A stretch of DNA of 35,049 nt, taken from contig CAJONI010000032.1 of NCBI GenBank assembly GCA_905235995.1, forward strand, positions 1 to 35,049, read 5' to 3'. Each line of letters begins with the position of its first letter. Positions within the stretch are counted from its first letter, which is position 1. Below the pieces are notes generated by a model. It searched no databases and was not told the origin of the DNA. It saw only the letters and a program-made list of their open reading frames with translations. A program made the position numbers and the translations under genes. Below, piece after piece: positions 311 to 9,812 of the stretch. This DNA comes from an uncultured Bacteroidales bacterium (GTDB taxonomy: Bacteria > Bacteroidota > Bacteroidia > Bacteroidales > UBA932).

Positions 311-829
311 TTAATACGTGAAGATATATTCGGTCGAGATGCCGCCGAATTCCTCGAGGACCATGCGCGTAGGCAGGTTCTTGCTGTTGTATTCCATCAC
401 GATCTTGGAATAGCCGCGGGGAGCGGCCTTGCGGGCTGTCATCTCCACCGTCTTGACACCGCTTTTTTCCGAGACCTTGAGTTCGGCGTCGTTGTCCTGT
501 GCGGCCTGCTCCACGTTGCCGGTGATGCAGTTGAGCAGGGTGTTCTTCATAGTGCGGAAGCGGGCGTTGTTGTCGGTGTTGACCGAGATCTGCTGTCCGT
601 TGGAGTTGGAGCGGAGCATCGGGCCGGAAATGACCAGGTAATCGCCTGCAGGCTGGGTGTAGGTCATCGTCAGCTGGTCGGGATTGATGAAGGAGATGAC
701 GCCCTCGGAGCGGACAACCTTGCCGGAGGCCTTGATGGTGCGGGCCTGGGTGAAGGAGCAGTCGAGTTGCTGGGCGAACGCGAGGGCTGCGCTGCAGAGA
801 AGGAATATGGTCAGAAAAGTCTTTTTCAT
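311..829 (-). CDS. LolA-like outer-membrane lipoprotein carrier
   Basis: A 172-residue protein with a clear signal peptide (MKKTFLTIFLLCSAALAFA, cleaved before QQ). The mature part has the single-domain LolA-like pattern: an early FTQARTIKASGKVVRSEGVISF strand pair, a QLTMTYTQPAGDYLVI strand, and a C-terminal half ending in NLPTRMVLEEFGG. LolA-family proteins are periplasmic carriers of lipidated cargo (family knowledge). The upstream in-frame extension has no signal peptide, so ATG at 829 is chosen; a -7 box lies about 23 bases before it. In aryl-polyene and related clusters, LolA-like proteins occur with MMPL exporters and thioesterases, as here, so the cargo may be a lipid rather than a lipoprotein (inference). 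Confidence 0.8.
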   Translation of the reverse strand: MKKTFLTIFLLCSAALAFAQQLDCSFTQARTIKASGKVVRSEGVISFINPDQLTMTYTQPAGDYLVISGPMLRSNSNGQQISVNTDNNARFRTMKNTLLNCITGNVEQAAQDNDAELKVSEKSGVKTVEMTARKAAPRGYSKIVMEYNSKNLPTRMVLEEFGGISTEYIFTY

Positions 830-852
830 TGTCTTGTCGTTTTTTGGAAGGG

Positions 853-860
853 CAAAGGTA
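853..860 (-). promoter_or_regulatory. -7 box for the lolA-like gene
   Basis: TACCTTTG on the minus strand matches the Bacteroidota -7 consensus TAnnTTTG, 23 bases before the ATG. It lies between the thioesterase stop and lolA, so lolA can be transcribed on its own. No convincing -33 element was seen. Confidence 0.5.
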
Positions 861-872
861 AGACAATTCTTT

Positions 873-1628
873 CTAATTTCGTACCAAAACGATCTCGACG
901 CAGAAAGCCGAAACGCCTTCCACTCGTCCTTCCACTGCCCAGCCGCCGGGTATCTCCGCACGGAAGAACTCCACATTGGAGCCGGGGCGGACCTCCTTGT
1001 TGAAGTTGATGGTCAGGCTCCGTACACGGTTGTGCGCCACCAGGTCAAAATCGAGGCAGTCCATGGCCCAGGCCACGTAGCGGGCGTTGTTGGCATGGCC
1101 TAGCATGTCTACGTCGGAATAGGCTGCGATGCGGCTGCCGGCTGGTTCGACGCCCTCGGAAGGCAGCGCTACTTTCGGGCAGGGAGTATCGATGGCGCTG
1201 TCGGGGTATTCGGTATCGACGGGGAGTTCGGAGGGAAGATGTTCGCGTCTGACAAGCCGCCGCGTGTCGGTGTTGATCACCAGCCACGACGATGTCGCCA
1301 GCACTGCGGGATGGCCCTGAGCGTCGAGCATACGGAAGTCGCGCACGTAGAACGGACCTTCGAAACCCTTGTGCCAGGTCTGGAGTTCTACCTCATCCCT
1401 CCAGCGGGGCATGGCCGGAAACTCGATGTGCATGCGCGAGAGGACCCACGCAAGCGAGGAGCGCTGCAGGTCGTCGAAGCCGAAGCCCAGATGCGTTGCG
1501 GAAGCATTGGCCATCTCCTGCGCCAGGTCCATGAAGGAACTGGGTTTGAGGAAACTGTCGGCGTCGGTGCCGTAGCTCGGGATACGGATCTGCTGGCGTG
1601 TCTTGTTGTCTTCGTTCGCGGAAATCAT
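873..1628 (-). CDS. Acyl-ACP thioesterase (FatA/FatB-like double hotdog)
   Basis: A 251-residue protein, the usual length for bacterial acyl-ACP thioesterases, which hydrolyse acyl-ACP to free fatty acid in the cytoplasm. The first hotdog domain (about 10-125) carries the family-like segment LAWVLSRMHIEF at 59-70. The second (about 165-250) carries SDVDMLGHANNARY at 171-184, with D174, H178 and N180 at the catalytic positions, then INFNKEV at 207-213. ATG 1628 is used because the upstream in-frame extension is basic, lacks homology-like features and contains the promoter. The gene sits just beyond a fatty-acid activation operon (FakAB, PlsX, ACP), which would act on the free acids this enzyme releases (inference). 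Confidence 0.88.
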   Translation of the reverse strand: MISANEDNKTRQQIRIPSYGTDADSFLKPSSFMDLAQEMANASATHLGFGFDDLQRSSLAWVLSRMHIEFPAMPRWRDEVELQTWHKGFEGPFYVRDFRMLDAQGHPAVLATSSWLVINTDTRRLVRREHLPSELPVDTEYPDSAIDTPCPKVALPSEGVEPAGSRIAAYSDVDMLGHANNARYVAWAMDCLDFDLVAHNRVRSLTINFNKEVRPGSNVEFFRAEIPGGWAVEGRVEGVSAFCVEIVLVRN

Positions 1629-1647
1629 TTTCTTGGTAGAGTTTTTG

Positions 1648-1655
1648 CAAAAGTA
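1648..1655 (-). promoter_or_regulatory. -7 box for the acyl-ACP thioesterase gene
   Basis: TACTTTTG on the minus strand matches TAnnTTTG and ends 19 bases before the thioesterase ATG, inside the 76-base divergent gap with the DUF3108 gene. Confidence 0.5.
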
Positions 1656-1704
1656 CGGAGAATTTTTGCTTTTTTTGCAGTCCCGTTTGCGGAAGCCATA
1701 ATAG

Positions 1705-2418
1705 ATGAAACGCATCCTTCCCCTCATATTGCTCTTTGTGAGCTGCCTGGCCCAGGCCCAGGATCATTCCCTCGGCACCGAGACCCTCAGTTATACCATA
1801 CGCCACAATCTCTTCCCCGGAAACATCGGCACGATGACCTTCGACGGCCGTCCGGACGGGGAGAATTATCGTCTGGAAGCGACGCTCACCGCTGCGGTTG
1901 GCGGAATCTACACGCTTGACTGTCAATACGGTTCGACCTTTATCATGGACGAGGCCCTCACCCCCGTGGCGGCAGACCGTTCGCAGACCGAGAAGAAATA
2001 TTGGGCGAAGGGAATCTACGACTGGGAGACCCCCGGCAAGGTTCACCTCGACGTGACGAAGAGTTCCAGGCCTCATCGCGACGAGATTCTCGAATGGGAC
2101 GGCATCGTCCGCGACCTGCTCGGCATGCTCTGGCGCATCCGCACCCTCGACTACGGCTCCGACAGCACAGCCATGGTTCCGGAATGGCCCGCGACTGCCC
2201 TGCTTCTCGACCACGACCCGCTGCCCGTGAGCATCGCCTCCTGCAAACGCAAGACCATCAAGTTCGAGGGCAAGCCTACTCCCGTCATTGTGGTCGTCCT
2301 CGTCCAGGACGGCAAGGAAGCCCTCAGCATGACCATCACCGACGACGCCACCCACACCCCCCTGCGCTTCTCCATCGGCCTCTCCTTCGGCACGATCAAA
2401 GGTACGCTGAAGAAATAA
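1705..2418 (+). CDS. DUF3108 domain protein, secreted
   Basis: A 237-residue protein with a signal peptide (MKRILPLILLFVSCLAQAQ). The mature part is strand-rich, with the DUF3108-like order: an early YTIRHNLFPGNIGTMTF segment, a YRLEATLTAAVGGIYTLDCQYGS segment, RDLLGMLWRIRTLDYG in the middle, a KTIKFEGKPTPVIVVVL strand, and a TPLRFSIGLSFGTIKGTLKK end. DUF3108 proteins are periplasmic and of unknown function, often encoded near envelope genes. The Cys at residue 14 is followed by LAQAQ, so ordinary signal peptidase I cleavage seems likelier than lipidation. It is the only plus-strand gene inside a minus-strand lipid block, separating the thioesterase/lolA pair from the FakAB-PlsX operon. No clear promoter was found for it. 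Confidence 0.75.
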   Translation: MKRILPLILLFVSCLAQAQDHSLGTETLSYTIRHNLFPGNIGTMTFDGRPDGENYRLEATLTAAVGGIYTLDCQYGSTFIMDEALTPVAADRSQTEKKYWAKGIYDWETPGKVHLDVTKSSRPHRDEILEWDGIVRDLLGMLWRIRTLDYGSDSTAMVPEWPATALLLDHDPLPVSIASCKRKTIKFEGKPTPVIVVVLVQDGKEALSMTITDDATHTPLRFSIGLSFGTIKGTLKK

Positions 2419-2451: not shown

Positions 2452-2685
2452 CTACTGGGCTGCTTCCTGTTTTTCGAGGTAGTCGACTACGTCGCCGACG
2501 GTTTCGAAGGTGGCGAGGGCGGCGTCGGGGATGACGATGCCGTACTGGTCTTCAACTTTCATCAGGAGTTGGAGGATGTCGATGGAGTCGGCGCCAAGGT
2601 CGCGCTTGATCTTGGATTCGCGGGTGATGATGGCCGGGTCTTTCCGGAGCTGTTTGGCCAGTATGGCCTGCACTTTGTCAAACAT
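2452..2685 (-). CDS. Acyl carrier protein
   Basis: A 77-residue acidic protein of normal ACP length. The 4'-phosphopantetheine attachment site is Ser34 in DLGADSIDILQLLMKVED, followed by the acidic helix and the IPDAALATFETVGDVVDYL end. It begins 6 bases after plsX stops and is the last gene of the six-gene operon. The DSID form of the site, rather than the DSLD common in housekeeping AcpP, and the location apart from fabF suggest a dedicated ACP that exchanges acyl groups with PlsX and possibly with the GNAT acyltransferase two genes upstream (inference). Whether it is the only ACP of the organism cannot be seen here, so no symbol is given. Confidence 0.92.
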   Translation of the reverse strand: MFDKVQAILAKQLRKDPAIITRESKIKRDLGADSIDILQLLMKVEDQYGIVIPDAALATFETVGDVVDYLEKQEAAQ

Positions 2686-2691
2686 GACGGG

Positions 2692-3711
2692 TTAATCTTC
2701 GTAGTGTTCGTATTTTGCAATTTCGCTTTCGATCTTGGCGGAGAGACGGGAGGTCTCCATCCTGTAGGCCTGCTCGATACATTTTTCCACGGCGACGGCG
2801 CGGCTGCTGCCGTGGCCCTTGACCACGACCTTCTGAGTGCCCAGCAGTACGCTGCCACCGTAGTTCTGGTAGTTCATGAACTCCTTCTCTTCCATGAACA
2901 TGCGCTTCATCAGCAGCGCCCCGAACTTGTAGAGGTTGCGGGAATATATGTCCTTCTTCAGCTTCTTGAGCAATTCGACCGCAGTGCCCTCGGTGGTCTT
3001 TACCAGAACGTTGCCTGAGAAACCGTCGGCCACCACAAGGTCGTAGGAACCCGACAGCAGGTCGCGGCTCTCCATGTTGCCCACGAAGTTGACCGAAGGA
3101 GTCTCCTTCAGCAGCGCGTAGGTCTCGCGCCGCAGATCGTCGCCCTTCTCCGCCTCCAGGCCCACGTTGAGCAGGGCCGTGCGCGGAGAGGCGATACCGT
3201 AGACATTTTCCAGATAGAGGCTCGCCATGATGGCGAACTGCCGCAGATGGGCGGACGTCACCTCGGGGTTCGCACCGCTGTCGCAGATGCCGACAATGCC
3301 GCCCGTCATGGTGGGCAGCAGCGGGCAGAATGCCGGACGTATGACGCCCGGGATGCGGCCCAGACGTACCAGGGCCCCCGTGACGAGCGCCCCGGTGGAG
3401 CCGGTTGATACCATTCCGGCGATGTCGTCGCAGTCGCGCAGCATGATGATGGCCTTCATCATCGAGCTGTTGCGCTTGAGACGTATGGCGTCGGTGGGCT
3501 TCTCGTCGCCGCCAATGACCTCGGGCGCATGGACGATCTCCAGCCTGGAGGCGTCGTAGGACTTGCCGGCGAGTTCGGCCCGGATCAGGGCTTCGTCGCC
3601 CGTCAGCAGCAGGTGCAGTTCGGGATTCTTCGCCAGTGCGGCGACGGCGCCGGCGACCGGCGCTTCGGGGCAGTGGTCGCCCCCGAAGCAGTCGATGAGG
3701 AGCTTTATCAT
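2692..3711 (-). CDS. plsX: Phosphate acyltransferase PlsX
   Basis: A 339-residue protein of standard PlsX length. It starts MIKLLIDCFGGDHCPEAPV (family: DAMGGDxAP) and has STGALVTGALVRLGRIPGVIRPAF at about 104-128, GICDSGANPEVTSAHLRQFA, NVGLEAEKG, and DLVVADGFSGNVLVKTTEG. PlsX is a soluble, membrane-associated enzyme that interconverts acyl-ACP and acyl-phosphate for phosphatidate synthesis. Its start overlaps the stop of the GNAT gene in an ATGA, and ACP follows after 6 bases, so translation is probably coupled. Next to FakAB, PlsX can run in reverse and load activated free fatty acid onto ACP (known for FakAB/PlsX systems of Firmicutes; inferred here). The typical plsX-rpmF-fabH context is absent. 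Confidence 0.93.
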   Translation of the reverse strand: MIKLLIDCFGGDHCPEAPVAGAVAALAKNPELHLLLTGDEALIRAELAGKSYDASRLEIVHAPEVIGGDEKPTDAIRLKRNSSMMKAIIMLRDCDDIAGMVSTGSTGALVTGALVRLGRIPGVIRPAFCPLLPTMTGGIVGICDSGANPEVTSAHLRQFAIMASLYLENVYGIASPRTALLNVGLEAEKGDDLRRETYALLKETPSVNFVGNMESRDLLSGSYDLVVADGFSGNVLVKTTEGTAVELLKKLKKDIYSRNLYKFGALLMKRMFMEEKEFMNYQNYGGSVLLGTQKVVVKGHGSSRAVAVEKCIEQAYRMETSRLSAKIESEIAKYEHYED

Positions 3712-4829
3712 GACAGTTTCTTCATATAGGCGCGGCGGCGCTTCACCTGCCTGGCGTCGAAACGGTGCCAGAGGTTGAGGATGGCGTAGTTGTCCTCGAG
3801 GTTGAGGTTCGTCTCGCAGTACTCGACGCCGGTGTCGCGCAGCATGTGCATGATGGCCGAGGCGAAGGCTACCGACACCCCGCGGTTGAGATATTCCGGA
3901 TCTACGCCCACAAGGCAGAGGTCGATGATCTTCGGATTGCGGATGCAGCGCAGCAAGCGCAGCAGGGTGCGGGGAGTGTAGCGTCCGCGCGTGCCTGCCA
4001 GCGCAGGCGCGAGCGCAGGAATCGCGAAGCCGAAGCAGACCACCCTCTCGTTCTCGTCGAGGATGACCGCGGTGTATTTCGGGCTGATGACGATGCGGAA
4101 ATTGTCGATCATCAGTTTCTTCATCCCCTCGGTGAAGGGGACGGTGCCGTAGAGGCCCTCGTACGACTTGTCGAGGATCTCAAAGATGCCGTCGGCGTAG
4201 CGCTTCAGGAAATCGGCGGTGCCCCTGGAAGGTCCGAAGTGCAGCTTGTAGCGGCGGAAAATGAAATCGGTGAGCTTGTCGAGATCCTCCTCGTCGGTCT
4301 CGGGGGCGTAGATGCGCGACTCAGTCCAGTCGACCTCCTTGGCGTAGCCCAGCGCTTCGACGTGGTGCTGATAGTACTCGGCATTGTACTGCTCCTCGAA
4401 GGTCTGCGGCTGGTCGAAACCCTCCACCAGCAGGCCCTCGCGCTCCAGGTCCGAGAAACTCAGCGGGCCGCAGGCCGTGTCCATCCCCTTCGAAAGTGCC
4501 CAGGCCTCGAAAGCCCCGAAGAGCGCCCTGGAAACCTCAGGGTCGTCGATGGTGTCGAAACGGCAGAAACGCGCGCGCTTCTCCTTCCTCTTCTCGTTGG
4601 AGGCCCTCTGGATTATGCCCTGGATGCGGCCGGCGATCTTCCCGTCGCGATAGGCGTTCCAGCAGGTCCAGTCGCAGCAGTCGTTGTAGACGAAGTTCCT
4701 GGAGAACATCTTCTTCTCGTCGGCATAAAGCGGCGGGACGAAGAACTTGCTGCCGCGGTAGAGGTCGAGCGGGAAGCTGAGGAACTCCCGCTGCTCGCGC
4801 CGCGTCTTTACTTCCCTGACTTCTACCAT
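3708..4829 (-). CDS. GNAT-fold N-acyltransferase, YghO / bacterial ceramide synthase-like
   Basis: A 373-residue cytoplasmic protein with no signal peptide or membrane segment. Segment 88-139 contains FDTIDDPEVSRALF, then GPLSFSDLEREGLLVEGFD, a pattern I associate with the YghO-like GNAT family; the C-terminal GNAT half has CLVGVDPEYLNRGVSVAFASAIM followed by a NYAILNLWHRFDA end. From memory, this family includes the bacterial ceramide synthase described in Caulobacter; I cannot verify the match here. ATG 4829 is chosen because it lies 1 base after the fakB stop; the upstream extension would run into fakB. The plsX start overlaps its stop. Sitting between acyl-phosphate and acyl-ACP enzymes, it plausibly uses an acyl-ACP donor to N-acylate an amine (inference). 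The acceptor is unknown. Confidence 0.65.
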   Translation of the reverse strand: MVEVREVKTRREQREFLSFPLDLYRGSKFFVPPLYADEKKMFSRNFVYNDCCDWTCWNAYRDGKIAGRIQGIIQRASNEKRKEKRARFCRFDTIDDPEVSRALFGAFEAWALSKGMDTACGPLSFSDLEREGLLVEGFDQPQTFEEQYNAEYYQHHVEALGYAKEVDWTESRIYAPETDEEDLDKLTDFIFRRYKLHFGPSRGTADFLKRYADGIFEILDKSYEGLYGTVPFTEGMKKLMIDNFRIVISPKYTAVILDENERVVCFGFAIPALAPALAGTRGRYTPRTLLRLLRCIRNPKIIDLCLVGVDPEYLNRGVSVAFASAIMHMLRDTGVEYCETNLNLEDNYAILNLWHRFDARQVKRRRAYMKKLS

Positions 4830-4830
4830 C

Positions 4831-5700
4831 TTAGCGATTTTTGGCGTGGAAGCACACACTCACCCCGTTAGGCCCGGCGTGGCTGCCGGCGGTGGGGTTG
4901 CAGACCACGAATTCGATGTCAAGGTCTTCCCCGAAGCGCTCCCTGATCATCCTGGCCTCCTCTTCGGCGAGCTCCGGCGCATCGGTGTGCCCGATGTAGA
5001 AACGGTAGGACTTGATGGCGTCGCCCAGCTGGAGAACCTTGTCCGAAAGGTATTCCATGGCCTTGGCGCGGCCCTTGACTGTGCCGCACGAGACCATCTT
5101 GCCCTCTTCGGACATGTAGATGATGGGCCTGATGCCGATGAGCGTGCCCATGGTGGCGGCCAGGCCGCTCACGCGACCGCTGCGGCGGAAGAATTTCAGG
5201 TCGTCGGCGAAGAAATACATGGCGTAGTGGTCGACTTCGGTCCTGGCCCACTCCATCATTTCGTCGAGAGTCTTTCCCTCGAGGAAGAGGTCGCCCACGG
5301 CGCGGACTATGGCGTAGCTGATGGTGGTGATGCCCTTGGTGTCGATCTCCTCGAAGCGGCGTTCCGGATACCTGGCGCGGAGCTCGGCCACGGCCTGGTC
5401 CATCGCGTCGAAGGTGTTGGTCATGGCACGGGAGAAGTGCACGTAGAGTATGTCCCTGCCGGCCTTGAACTCAGGCTCGAAATACTCGATGTAGCGTTCC
5501 CTGGAGATGGCGCTGGTGGTGGGCAGCACTCCTGAGCGCAGCATGTCGTAGAAACTGCGCGAGTCGAATTCCTTGAAGTCTACGTATGGGTAAACGGTCT
5601 TTGCGTCCACGCTGTAGGGCATGCTGATGAGCTTGTAGCCATATTGAGCAGCCACTGCAGGGGTGATGTCGGTGTCGGTGTCGGTGTAAAGTGTCAGCAT
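4831..5700 (-). CDS. DegV family fatty acid-binding protein, FakB-like
   Basis: A 289-residue, two-lobed EDD-fold protein of normal DegV length. Expected features in order: YTDTDTDIT at 5-13 (family: TDSSSDL), PTTSAIS at 60-66 (TSxxS), HFSRAMTNTF at 88-97, DDLKFFRRSGRVS at 166-178, GTLIGIRPI at 185-193, GHTDAPELAEE at 237-247 and the end segment GSHAGPNGVSVCF at 272-284. T62, S63, H238 and H274 fall at positions that bind the fatty-acid carboxylate in FakB proteins (family knowledge). The start overlaps the end of the FakA gene by 7 bases, as expected for partners. FakB holds the free fatty acid while FakA phosphorylates it. The N-terminal loop is encoded by a short hexanucleotide repeat. Confidence 0.87.
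   Translation of the reverse strand: MLTLYTDTDTDITPAVAAQYGYKLISMPYSVDAKTVYPYVDFKEFDSRSFYDMLRSGVLPTTSAISRERYIEYFEPEFKAGRDILYVHFSRAMTNTFDAMDQAVAELRARYPERRFEEIDTKGITTISYAIVRAVGDLFLEGKTLDEMMEWARTEVDHYAMYFFADDLKFFRRSGRVSGLAATMGTLIGIRPIIYMSEEGKMVSCGTVKGRAKAMEYLSDKVLQLGDAIKSYRFYIGHTDAPELAEEEARMIRERFGEDLDIEFVVCNPTAGSHAGPNGVSVCFHAKNR
5665..5688 (-). repeat. Hexanucleotide tandem repeat in the fakB-like gene
   Basis: Two perfect GGTGTC units flanked by one-mismatch units (plus-strand reading) encode the TDTDTD stretch in the N-terminal loop of the DegV/FakB protein. Confidence 0.6.
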
Positions 5701-7298
5701 AGCAGTAAGATATAATCGTAAACGGGTTGGCCTCCGGGGATGAGGGTTACTTCGGTGCGGGGAAAGGCGGCCTGCAGGGCTCCGGCGGCGGCCTCGGCCT
5801 CGTCGGCCGGCACGTCGCCTCCCTGGAAGAGGAGTGCAAGGTCGTGGCTGTCGGTCCCGAGCCTGCGGGCAAGCTCCAGGATGGTCTCCTGCCGCTCGGG
5901 GGAAGCGCAGAGTATGTCCTTCCCGCTCATGCCGAGATAGTCGCCGGTATGCCCGGCTTCGCTGTCGCGAATGGCGCGGGACACGTTGCCGCTGACGCAG
6001 TCGCCCAGCGCCTCTTCCAGCGCGGGGACTATCTCGTCGACGGTCTGCGAGACGTCGAGGTTCGCCATGGCGAAATAGCCTTCGCCGAGGCTCCGGGTGG
6101 GGATGACCTCGACGCGCGACTTGCCGTACATCTCGGCGGCCTGTCTGGCGGTGAGGAGTATGTTGCCGTTGTTGGGGAAGACGAGCACGCTTTCGGCGCC
6201 TATGCTGTCGAAAGCCTCGATGAAGGCCTGCACCGGCGGGTTCATGGTCTGTCCGCCCTCTATCACCACGTCGGCGCCCATGTCGCTGAAGGCCTGCTGC
6301 AGGCCCGCCCCTGCCGCCACCGTCACCACCCCGAGGACCTTGCCGCGGGTGCGGAAGCGCTCGTCCATGTGGTTCCCGTGGTGCTGGAGCGTCATGTTCT
6401 CGATCTTGAGGGTCAGGAACTCGCCCCACTTCTGGCACTGGTTGAGTATTTCGCCGGGGGTGCGGGTGTGGACGTGCACCTTGATGATGCTTCCGTCGCG
6501 GAAGAACACCAGCGACTCGCCGTGGGCCGAAAGCCAGTCGGATATCTCACGCTCGTCGAAGTGCTCCAGGTCGACCTTGCTGCGCTGCAGCCTGAGCAGG
6601 AACTCGGTGCAGTAGCCGAACTCCAGGGTGCTGTCTTCCGAGAAGGCATCCAGGTCGACGGCGTGCGCCGCGGGAAGGTTTGCTTCTTCCGGCAGTAAGG
6701 CGGCCTGTCCGTGCAGCGCGGCCCTCATGCCTTCGGCGATGTAGAGAAGCCCTGCGCCTCCGCTGTCCACCACTCCTGCGCGCTTGAGCACGTAGAGCAG
6801 CTCGGGAGTATGCTGGAGCGAGAGGTCCATGGCAGATATCAGCAGGTCGAAGTATTCGTCGAAATTGCGGCTGTGCGAGGCGGCGGCCACTCCTTCCCTA
6901 AGGACGGTCAGGATGGTGCCCTCCACGGGCTCCGGCACCGCGCCGTAGGCCGATTCCACTCCGCAGGCCATGGCTTTCTCGAAAGCCTCGAGTCCCGCCT
7001 CTTCGCATCCGTCCAGCCCTTTGGCTATGCCGGCGAATATGCGGGAGAGTATCACCCCGGAATTGCCGCGGGCTCCCGTCAGCATCCCCCGGGAGACGGC
7101 GGCAGCGGTTTCCCCGAGCGTACCGGCGGCGGCACGGTATCCCGCCTCGATGGTCATGTACATGTTGTCGCCCGTGTCTCCGTCGGGAATGGGGAAGACG
7201 TTCAGGTCGTTGACGATCTTCCTGTTCTCGCCCAGACGCGCGGCGCCGCCGCGGACCAGCGAAAGGAAACGCTTTCCATCCAGTGTTTCTTCCGTCAT
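5694..7298 (-). CDS. Fatty acid kinase catalytic subunit, FakA-like (DAK2/YloV)
   Basis: A 534-residue protein matching the full FakA/YloV layout. The N-terminal DhaL kinase domain (1 to about 200) has NVFPIPDGDTGDNM at 33-46, with D39, D41 and D44 as Mg-ATP ligands, GARGNSGVILSRIFAG at 75-90 and DSGGAGLL at 178-185. The middle domain has GYCTEF (C230) and KVHVHT (H275, H277), matching the Cys-His-His metal site of FakA. The C-terminal domain has GGQTMNPP and FPNNGNILLTA, typical of the FakB-interacting part. FakA transfers phosphate from ATP to FakB-bound fatty acid to make acyl-phosphate. Its ATG shares ATGA with the stop of the MMPL gene, and the FakB gene overlaps its 3' end. A DAK2 protein on dihydroxyacetone is unlikely given the partner. 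Confidence 0.88.
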   Translation of the reverse strand: MTEETLDGKRFLSLVRGGAARLGENRKIVNDLNVFPIPDGDTGDNMYMTIEAGYRAAAGTLGETAAAVSRGMLTGARGNSGVILSRIFAGIAKGLDGCEEAGLEAFEKAMACGVESAYGAVPEPVEGTILTVLREGVAAASHSRNFDEYFDLLISAMDLSLQHTPELLYVLKRAGVVDSGGAGLLYIAEGMRAALHGQAALLPEEANLPAAHAVDLDAFSEDSTLEFGYCTEFLLRLQRSKVDLEHFDEREISDWLSAHGESLVFFRDGSIIKVHVHTRTPGEILNQCQKWGEFLTLKIENMTLQHHGNHMDERFRTRGKVLGVVTVAAGAGLQQAFSDMGADVVIEGGQTMNPPVQAFIEAFDSIGAESVLVFPNNGNILLTARQAAEMYGKSRVEVIPTRSLGEGYFAMANLDVSQTVDEIVPALEEALGDCVSGNVSRAIRDSEAGHTGDYLGMSGKDILCASPERQETILELARRLGTDSHDLALLFQGGDVPADEAEAAAGALQAAFPRTEVTLIPGGQPVYDYILLLC

Positions 7299-9778
7299 GG
7301 CTTGATCTTAAGGCTGTTGCGGAAGAATTTCGTTTTCAGCAGAAGCCGGAAGATGAAGGGCTCGAGCGAGTAGGCCATCCAGATGGTAGAGATCATGCCG
7401 ATGAGCGTGATCATGCCTATGGAACTGATGGCCGGATGGGTGGCGAAGATGAGCGAAGCGACGGTGATTATCAGCACCAGGGCCGAGAAGAAGATGGCCA
7501 CCTTGTGGTATTCCAGCTTGTCGGAGTCGCCCGTCCGCGCCTGCTGCAGCAGGCCCTCCATCACGAATATGCTGTAGTCCACACCTATGCCGAAGACGAA
7601 GGTGGATATCACTATGTTGATCATGTTGAATTCCAGCCCGAAGATGGCCATCAGGCCCTGCAGCACGTACCAGGAGAGGAACATCGGCAGGAAGGCCACC
7701 AACGCTACCAGGATGTTGCGGAAGGCGATGAGCAGCACTATCAGCACGAAGAGCGAAGATATGAGGAGGGTCGTGTTGAAGTCGTCGTGGACCACCTGCA
7801 CTATGTCGCGGCAGTAGTAGAAAGGCTCGAGCACCATGATGTGGGGGTTGCGGACCAGGTTGTCCGACACTGCGTCCATGTCTTTCGGCTCGAACGTCAC
7901 AGTCGTGAATACGAAAGTCCTGCCTTCCGGCTGCACCTCGACGAAGTTGAGCAGCAGTTCTTCGGGGATGAAGCCCGCTTCCAGCAGCGAGCCGGGTTCA
8001 TAGTCGGCTTCCACCAGGGCGAAGAAAGGCTCGAACAGCGAAGCGTCGAGTCCGGTCCTGCTGCACTCGCGGTTGAGATTGGTGCGGGCCTCTGCGATGC
8101 GCTGCCGCGTCCAGAAAGCCTTCCAGGCGTCGATGCGGAGCTGCTGGTCCCGGGTGTTCTGGAAGAGCAGCGGCACGATGGAGGAATAGTTCTTCACCAG
8201 GCCGGTCTTCTTGAGCGAGTCGAGGCTCGCCATCAGGGCCTTGTTGTATTCGAGGGCCTGGTCGATGTCGTAGTCGTAGGCGGCGTAGTAGAGGTGCTTG
8301 TAGCCGTCTTCGTTCTTTTCGCTGTAGAGCCTGGCGCTTTCGCGTACGTTCTCGTTGTCGTAGCCGAGGTTGCGCAGGTCGCTGTCGAACTTCACCTTCG
8401 GGCTCATCACCACTCCGGCGACCATCACCACGGCCAGCAGCCCGAGGATCACGGGGCTGGTGTCCCATGGCAGGTCGTTGAATTTCTGGATGACGGGGAA
8501 GCCTTTGGACTTGCGGAACTTGATGTCGCTCTTCTTCATGTTGTGGGGCAGGAACACCAGTGCGTAGGCGGTGCTTCCCACAAGCAGGAAGGTGGCGAAG
8601 AGGCCGAAGTCCTTGAGCATGTCGCTGTCGGTGAAGAGCAGGCCGAGGAAGGCGCCAATGGTGGTCAGGCAGCCCAGGAATATTGGCGTGGACTCTTCCT
8701 CGATCACCTTCTCGATATCTTCCACGTAGTAGTAGTGGATAAGCAGGTGCAGGCAGTAGCTCAGCGCCACGCCCAGGATGATCGCGCCGCAGCCGAAGGC
8801 CATGAGCGACATGTAGCCCTTGATCCAGTAGATGCAGGCCAGCGAGAACACCGTGCCGTAGGCCACGGGCATCACCATGTGGCGGATGAACGAGAGCCTG
8901 TGGAAGCAGAGCAGCAGGATGACCAGGATGATCAGCAGCGAGATGCCCACCGTCCGCAAGAGGTCCATCTTGATGGTGCTGGCGTTGGAATATCCGCTCA
9001 GGGGAGCGCCGTGCGCCAGGACGCGGATGTCCGGATGTGCCGCCTCGAAGCTTTTCCGTTCCTTGGAGAGGATGCGGTTGAAGGGGGTGGCCATGCCGGA
9101 GTTGGTGTGGTGGAAGGTGGGGGAGAGGAAGGCCATCACCACAGTGGTGTCGGGGCTGAAGAAATGGCCGTCCACAATGTTGTAGCCTCCTGCCATGCCT
9201 TCTCCTGAGAGGAGGTCGCCCAGCAGGGCTTCGCGCAGGTTGAAGGGGTCGGAGCATACCATCTGGGTGACGGTGCCGGTCATGTCTTCGGCGATAAGCT
9301 CGACGTTGCGTTCCATCTGGGCGCGTATGGCGTCAGGCTCGAGGGCTGCGGCGAGGGCTTCGTAGACCGAGGTGTCGACGAAGGAGGGAAGGTGCTCGAA
9401 GCCGTAGTCCATGGCGTTGAGTCCCACCTCGAGGTCGAGCGAGTGGAGTATGCCCGTATAGTATTTGCCTGCGGTGTCGCGGGCGAGGAGGTTCTGCGAG
9501 AATTCGTCGATGTACTCTCCTAGGGTATAGGGATCGACGGGATTTTCGGGGTCGGCCGAGGTGATCTGTATGAAGAGCTTGTCGACCAGGCCTATGTCGC
9601 TGAATGCGACTTCATTCTGTTTGAGCCCCGATTGGGGGAGGAGTTTTATGACGTCTTCCTCGAGCCTTATCTGCAGGCTGAAAAACAGGAATACGATGAA
9701 AGAGACCGCCAGGATTGCGTAGCGCAGCGCCTTATGGTCGCGCAGGAACCGGTATAGCGGCAGGAAAATACGATGCAT
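7295..9778 (-). CDS. MMPL/RND-family exporter
   Basis: An 827-residue inner-membrane protein with the two-fold MMPL plan: TM1 at about 18-36, a large periplasmic loop to about 275, a TM2-6 bundle at about 275-412, TM7 at about 442-459, a second loop to about 660, and a final five-helix bundle to about 818. The proton-relay-like motif GVDYS lies at 732-736; its first-half counterpart reads GVALS at 336-340, lacking the Asp, so the halves are asymmetric. Family members (COG4258-like, HpnN-like) move lipids or polyketide-lipids using the proton gradient. It is the first gene of the six-gene operon and its stop overlaps the FakA start, implying its substrate is a product of the acyl enzymes downstream (inference). 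A LolA-like carrier lies nearby. Confidence 0.85.
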   Translation of the reverse strand: MHRIFLPLYRFLRDHKALRYAILAVSFIVFLFFSLQIRLEEDVIKLLPQSGLKQNEVAFSDIGLVDKLFIQITSADPENPVDPYTLGEYIDEFSQNLLARDTAGKYYTGILHSLDLEVGLNAMDYGFEHLPSFVDTSVYEALAAALEPDAIRAQMERNVELIAEDMTGTVTQMVCSDPFNLREALLGDLLSGEGMAGGYNIVDGHFFSPDTTVVMAFLSPTFHHTNSGMATPFNRILSKERKSFEAAHPDIRVLAHGAPLSGYSNASTIKMDLLRTVGISLLIILVILLLCFHRLSFIRHMVMPVAYGTVFSLACIYWIKGYMSLMAFGCGAIILGVALSYCLHLLIHYYYVEDIEKVIEEESTPIFLGCLTTIGAFLGLLFTDSDMLKDFGLFATFLLVGSTAYALVFLPHNMKKSDIKFRKSKGFPVIQKFNDLPWDTSPVILGLLAVVMVAGVVMSPKVKFDSDLRNLGYDNENVRESARLYSEKNEDGYKHLYYAAYDYDIDQALEYNKALMASLDSLKKTGLVKNYSSIVPLLFQNTRDQQLRIDAWKAFWTRQRIAEARTNLNRECSRTGLDASLFEPFFALVEADYEPGSLLEAGFIPEELLLNFVEVQPEGRTFVFTTVTFEPKDMDAVSDNLVRNPHIMVLEPFYYCRDIVQVVHDDFNTTLLISSLFVLIVLLIAFRNILVALVAFLPMFLSWYVLQGLMAIFGLEFNMINIVISTFVFGIGVDYSIFVMEGLLQQARTGDSDKLEYHKVAIFFSALVLIITVASLIFATHPAISSIGMITLIGMISTIWMAYSLEPFIFRLLLKTKFFRNSLKIKP

Positions 9779-9804: not shown

Positions 9805-9812
9805 CAAAGATA
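9805..9812 (-). promoter_or_regulatory. -7 box for the MMPL-FakAB-GNAT-PlsX-ACP operon
   Basis: TATCTTTG on the minus strand fits TAnnTTTG and ends 26 bases before the MMPL ATG. It lies in the 40-base gap after the cca stop, so the operon has its own promoter rather than depending on cca. Confidence 0.6.

Follow-up and report, generated by a model that had tools for sequence, protein, structure and literature searches.

The closest described systems are known from Enterococcus faecalis and from Rhodobacteria. In E. faecalis, the fatty acid kinase FakAB and PlsX load an auxiliary acyl carrier protein, AcpB, which is a better acceptor than AcpA for acyl groups coming from acyl-phosphate, and acpB appears to be cotranscribed with plsX (PMC6509188); conversion of fatty acids to acyl-ACP by FakAB and PlsX has been demonstrated in vitro (PMC11586512). 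The Rhodobacterial aasR-acpR-spt-epi-aca genes encode a dedicated activating enzyme, a dedicated ACP, and an N-acyltransferase, and the last gene, aca, which is needed for dihydroceramide synthesis, is equated with yghO and with Caulobacter CC_1154 (PMC9386255). The Caulobacter enzyme, named bCerS, is a cytoplasmic peripheral membrane acyltransferase (PMC11087976).

The locus studied here lies in a 35,049-nucleotide stretch of DNA from an uncultured Bacteroidales bacterium (the window). It shares with E. faecalis the genes for FakA, FakB, PlsX, and a second ACP (the one fed from acyl-phosphate in that species), and the ACP gene likewise adjoins plsX both in the window and in 56 of the 58 Bacteroidales loci among the best 80 found. 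The E. faecalis system differs in that AcpB serves FabT repression, N-acyltransferase is absent, and PlsY is present. In common with the Rhodobacterial set, the locus has its own activating enzyme, its own ACP, and an N-acyltransferase belonging to one family with aca. In Rhodobacteria, however, an acyl-ACP synthetase activates the fatty acid instead of FakAB-PlsX, the dedicated ACP has been shown to work for serine palmitoyltransferase (SPT), and the set has SPT and reductase genes that our locus lacks. The parts are known and both halves have precedents (FakAB-PlsX-AcpB, and a dedicated acyl-ACP with YghO), but no paper in the open-access literature searched was found to describe their union in one mobile cassette, FakA-FakB-GNAT-PlsX-ACP; the first-pass annotation of this DNA had also known of no described system with its six-part order.

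We consider it fairly probable that the locus is a horizontally exchanged cassette leading from fatty acid to N-acyl lipid. More tentatively, and with somewhat less confidence, we suggest that this mobile, cross-phylum combination of a fatty acid kinase with a ceramide-synthase-family enzyme could allow herbivore-gut bacteria, including Gram-positive Clostridia, to turn free fatty acids, via acyl-phosphate and then acyl-ACP, into N-acyl lipids, perhaps sphingolipids.

Gene content of the locus

The first-pass annotation had described six genes on one strand behind a single -7 box. The ORF coordinates agree with this layout and with its overlaps and gaps, and Pfam and NCBIfam domain searches confirmed the identities of MMPL, FakA, FakB, PlsX, and ACP. 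The features, with two neighboring genes, are as follows.

9805..9812, - strand: -7 box TATCTTTG of the TAnnTTTG type before the MMPL gene, read at 9812-9805 (sequence reading; a consensus match only)
7295..9778, - strand: MMPL/RND-family transporter, 827 aa, first gene (PF03176, E 3.5e-13; weak HpnN similarity)
5694..7298, - strand: FakA (534 aa), the catalytic subunit of fatty acid kinase (Dak2, FakA-like_M, FakA-like_C)
4831..5700, - strand: FakB, fatty-acid-binding DegV protein, 289 aa (DegV PF02645, E 2.9e-49; TIGR00762)
3708..4829, - strand: proposed N-acyltransferase, 373 aa, a tandem-GNAT member of the YghO/CC_1154 (bCerS) family (YghO homology; predicted fold)
2692..3711, - strand: cassette-type PlsX (339 aa), an acyl-ACP:phosphate acyltransferase (TIGR00182, 320.7 bits, cut-off 243.4)
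2452..2685, - strand: acyl carrier protein, 77 aa, DSI attachment motif (PF00550, E 4.9e-14; TIGR00517, 78.4, cut-off 70.45)
873..1634, - strand: acyl-ACP thioesterase-like protein beside the cassette (PF01643, E 3e-20)
311..829, - strand: LolA-like periplasmic carrier beside the cassette (PF03548, E 8e-10; LolA2_flexi, E 2e-17, below cut-off)

The MMPL-FakA and GNAT-PlsX junctions are ATGA overlaps, FakA and FakB overlap by 7 bases, and gaps of 1 and 6 bases separate FakB from GNAT and PlsX from ACP, respectively; a GTG at 4859 is also open as an alternative GNAT start. All three Pfam domains of FakA exceed their cut-offs, as does TIGR03599 YloV (480.5, cut-off 396.1), while the NCBIfam FakA equivalog scores 381, below its cut-off of 975. 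Alignment of FakA with PDB 7w7h (E 1e-100) shows conservation of PDGDTG, GYCTE, and VHVHT, the kinase/metal motifs. FakB matches solved FakB1 chains (E about 1e-14), and PlsX matches PDB 6a1k (E 1e-78). Given its DegV family and FakB1-like sequence, FakB is predicted to bind fatty acid for phosphorylation by FakA.

The GNAT protein has no Pfam or NCBIfam match at E 0.001 and aligns over its full length with E. coli YghO (28% identity, 378 aligned columns, E 2e-44). On this homology we assign it to the YghO/CC_1154 (bacterial ceramide synthase, bCerS) family, in which YghO was the sequence compared directly and CC_1154 is tied in through the gene listing of PMC9386255. The N-acyltransferase homology proposed earlier thereby found its basis in a family that had not been named. 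The AlphaFold model, built from 41 sequences (pLDDT 88.6), is a predicted tandem GNAT; its best structural matches are tandem GNATs (7q3a, Z 21.5, rmsd 3.5, 301 aligned; 5kf1, Z about 20), and it also resembles N-myristoyltransferases (Z about 15). A PDB sequence search with GNAT alone gave nothing credible, and a profile search gave weak GNAT matches only. A fold in common is no proof of the reaction, and N- rather than O-acylation is the predicted activity.

Conservation and horizontal movement of the cassette

About 85,000 species genomes were scanned, and the best 80 loci, with GNATs 59-82% identical, were kept. By taxa taken mostly from labels of metagenome-assembled genomes (MAGs), 58 of them are Bacteroidales, 21 Clostridia, and one Sphaerochaetaceae; the named hosts are mostly ruminants or other herbivores, and many of the cassette-bearing genomes are incomplete MAGs. 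As the arrangement recurs in nearly all of these 80 loci, it is not due to chance. The first-pass annotation had called for a search for the gene order in Bacteroidota. It is nearly invariant for five genes in the 58 Bacteroidales loci (FakA in 56, FakB in 57, PlsX in 57, and ACP in 56, with some absences being contig ends), yet it is not restricted to that phylum, as it also occurs, with gene losses, in the 22 Clostridia and Sphaerochaetaceae loci (FakA in 18, FakB in 19, PlsX in 17, and ACP in 13). The ACP is not always encoded at the cassette: nine of these 22 loci have no adjacent ACP gene, and three loci (L159, L160, and L095) consist of FakA-FakB-GNAT without adjacent PlsX-ACP. Two others (L145 and L150) have the GNAT-ACP pair only, without FakAB or PlsX.

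The core unit is therefore the five genes FakA-FakB-GNAT-PlsX-ACP, and MMPL is a Bacteroidales-only addition. Among the best 80 loci, it is found upstream of FakA in 46 of the 51 Bacteroidales loci whose sequence extends far enough in that direction and in none of the 11 testable Clostridia and spirochaete loci, the spirochaete locus included. Of the six-gene unit proposed earlier, the five-gene order thus stands, but MMPL is an optional member. Neighbor clustering revealed no additional gene widely common to the Clostridia and Bacteroidales cassettes. In three Clostridial loci (L121, L131, and L136), a TetR-type regulator is encoded directly upstream of FakA, with the TetR_C_8 domain in L121 and L136.

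A YghO-family gene of some kind is present in 55 of 60 sampled genomes from the family of the window's bacterium, but the cassette-type GNAT (at least 55% identity) in seven, the genome of the window included. FakA is present in exactly the same seven genomes.

The cassette PlsX proteins of Clostridia and Bacteroidales share a median identity of 63%, whereas identity to the cassette PlsX is 37-43% for the housekeeping copies in those Clostridia, which indicates that the cassette moved horizontally. Cassette PlsX proteins group together across phyla, apart from housekeeping PlsX, which supports a PlsX dedicated to the cassette. Pairwise distances of FakA, FakB, GNAT, and PlsX correlate across loci (r 0.59-0.85; the maximum of 499 permutations was 0.27), and the GNAT tree places the sequences from Clostridia and the spirochaete in a single group (support 0.84) among lineages of Bacteroidales. 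Individual loci labeled as Clostridia may come from mislabeled MAGs; two of the contigs are plausibly Clostridial, as one (L139) encodes a further, dissimilar FakA within a few kilobases and the other (L154) has, by sequence reading, GrpE, DnaK, and DnaJ genes near the cassette.

Proposed pathway and the acceptor amine

We infer the following catalytic steps in the cassette-bearing organisms. FakB would bind free fatty acid, either scavenged or released by a thioesterase, for phosphorylation by FakA; PlsX would then move the acyl moiety from its phosphate onto the cassette ACP, and the YghO/bCerS-family tandem-GNAT enzyme would use this acyl-ACP to acylate an amine. Where the host is Gram-negative, the product would probably reach the outer membrane through MMPL and LolA. 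If this is true, the fatty acid kinase, known from the Gram-positive phospholipid route, also provides gut bacteria, both Gram-negative and Gram-positive, with acyl groups for amide lipids, and such a pathway crosses phyla as one block. It would further imply that the rumen contains undescribed N-acyl lipids, and would give a testable answer on the acyl source of bCerS-family enzymes, for which a relay from acyl-phosphate to acyl-ACP has not been reported.

As to the amine, a sphingoid base is the leading candidate, although a doubtful one. In this narrower form of the proposal, GNAT would N-acylate sphinganine or 3-ketosphinganine, giving ceramide or a related sphingoid lipid or sulfonolipid, with SPT encoded elsewhere; we regard this as possible rather than probable. 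Besides the YghO/CC_1154 family membership itself, it is favored by the neighborhoods of GNAT paralogs. Within the same bacterial family, paralogous YghO-family GNATs adjoin SPT-like genes in five genomes (G005, G008, G011, G015, and G016), and an SDR reductase is also present at several of these loci; together with the YghO homology, these neighborhoods also speak for N-acyl transfer in the broader proposal. The Bacteroidales sphingolipid-type loci L277, L225, L232, and L235 share with the cassette a YghO-family GNAT, about 30-36% identical to the cassette one, and differ in having SPT-like and SDR neighbors. For instance, in L277 a split AMP-ligase and an ACP precede the GNAT and, together with it, face an SDR-SPT (AOS) pair, an arrangement that follows the logic of the cassette, with the AMP-ligase standing in for FakAB-PlsX. 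SPT-like genes are also found in the genome of the window (C50), in most cassette Bacteroidales tested, and in nine of 20 Clostridia cassette MAGs, several of them with an adjacent SDR gene and without an adjacent GNAT; sphingoid bases are probably available in many cassette hosts.

Against this narrower form, the cassette GNAT would come in addition to C29, a further YghO-family gene in the genome of the window that clusters with the SPT-linked clade. Moreover, SPT-like genes were not found in G052 (99% complete), G465, and 11 of the 20 Clostridia cassette MAGs, and therefore a sphingoid base is not demonstrable as the general acceptor. The Clostridial frequency of nine in 20 is not clearly above that in the order as a whole (about 75 of 248 members by a rough bit-score-range count; p 0.21). 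No SPT-like gene adjoins the cassette in the loci whose neighbors were examined, but such adjacency of spt and reductase genes is not required for the family, since in sphingolipid-producing Bacteroidota the genes are reported not to be close together (PMC11334938). The Clostridial SPT loci examined have no cassette GNAT alongside, only distant DegV matches.

In the order of the genome carrying L136 (G455), SPT-like genes occur, by bit score, in dozens of 248 genomes and are often SDR-adjacent (examples are L307, L310, L315-L321, L323-L325, and L342), which suggests sphingolipid-type synthesis in Clostridia. G456 and G477 encode a protein of approximately 1100 aa in which AMP-ligase, ACP, and SPT-like domains are fused (L251, L252, L338, and L339; domains checked in L251), and about 20 of the 248 Clostridial genomes contain frames of similar length with an SPT-like domain (e.g., G549:C175 and G719:C33).

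Acyl donor, phospholipid synthesis, and possible export

We infer that acyl-ACP is the acyl donor of GNAT. Alternatively, GNAT could take acyl-phosphate directly, with PlsX converting acyl-ACP to acyl-phosphate whenever free fatty acid runs short. Acyl-phosphate normally goes to PlsY, for which it is an established acyl donor; the three loci that keep FakA-FakB-GNAT without adjacent PlsX-ACP would also fit. However, the two loci reduced to GNAT and ACP, as well as the paralogous GNATs that directly adjoin or overlap ACP genes (L148, L193, L206, and L277), point to ACP, and, to our knowledge, GNAT-fold acyltransferases use thioester donors. We consider the direct use of acyl-phosphate unlikely.

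The relay through acyl-ACP agrees with the absence of PlsY from the cassette Bacteroidales. PlsY was found in none of 14 such genomes (seven in the family and seven further), with the window assembly 88% complete and relatives at 98-99% in agreement. Within the family, it is present in 25 of 30 other PlsX-bearing genomes and in none of the seven with the cassette. The Fisher tests applied in this analysis count genomes as independent, an assumption that does not hold. Hence acyl-phosphate cannot reach phospholipid by the usual route in these bacteria and probably goes through PlsX to ACP, in line with the earlier proposal that the activated fatty acid is placed on a dedicated ACP. That proposal had also asked for another plsX in the genome. 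Here the outcome is divided: the cassette PlsX is the sole PlsX in each of the seven cassette genomes of the family, that is, in the 88% complete assembly and in its more complete relatives (the G002 copy is split over two contigs), but as the same genomes lack PlsY, a sole plsX does not imply the usual phospholipid PlsX. The search for another acpP was successful, since the genome of the window encodes other stand-alone ACPs, two of them with downstream FabF-type synthase-like ORFs; the cassette ACP is therefore probably dedicated, as had been suggested. By analogy, the Enterococcus FakAB-PlsX-AcpB experiments support a relay from fatty acid to ACP in the cassette.

An ordinary Firmicute-type FakAB-PlsX-PlsY route of exogenous fatty acid into phospholipid, with GNAT incidental, has its precedent in Gram-positive bacteria, where FakAB and PlsX work in this way (PMC10146087, PMC12594616). 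It is highly improbable here given the missing PlsY in the 14 Bacteroidales, the position of GNAT in the middle of a cassette whose surrounding order is kept, and the second, housekeeping-type PlsX and PlsY that most cassette Clostridia possess. Equally improbable is that GNAT is an O-acyltransferase replacing PlsY as the glycerol-3-phosphate acyltransferase, for, while the cassette Bacteroidales lack PlsY and the protein comes from an acyltransferase family, PlsY is kept in 15 of 17 cassette Clostridia tested, many relatives without PlsX, PlsY, and the cassette must use another enzyme for this step, and the studied relatives of GNAT make amides. Neither PlsX nor PlsY is seen in 20 of the 60 family genomes, some of them incomplete assemblies, which implies that the first acylation of glycerol-phosphate there is performed by another enzyme.

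Returning to the proposed N-acyl-lipid cassette, MMPL and LolA are its putative export partners in Bacteroidales. MMPL and LolA export flexirubin and aryl polyene type lipids, and the cassette shares with these systems an MMPL transporter and a LolA-like carrier beside an ACP; unlike them, it has no ketosynthases, and the Clostridial loci showed neither MMPL nor LolA. Among the best 80 loci, 29 of 55 from Bacteroidales and none of 15 from outside that order have a LolA gene close to the cassette, and in six (L135, L146, L148, L153, L157, and L161) this gene overlaps the ACP gene on the same strand. The confinement of MMPL and LolA to Gram-negative hosts suggests export towards the outer membrane. 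A thioesterase-like gene lies near the cassette in 12 close relatives, and its product is a possible source of free fatty acid. The block of LolA, thioesterase, and DUF3108 genes (window positions 311-2418) is inverted relative to L087. Finally, a second MMPL, 25-27% identical, is encoded with esterase-like and AMP-ligase-like genes approximately 5 kb downstream of the cassette in L105, L106, L107, L113, L120, L127, and L143 (at about 14-20.7 kb).
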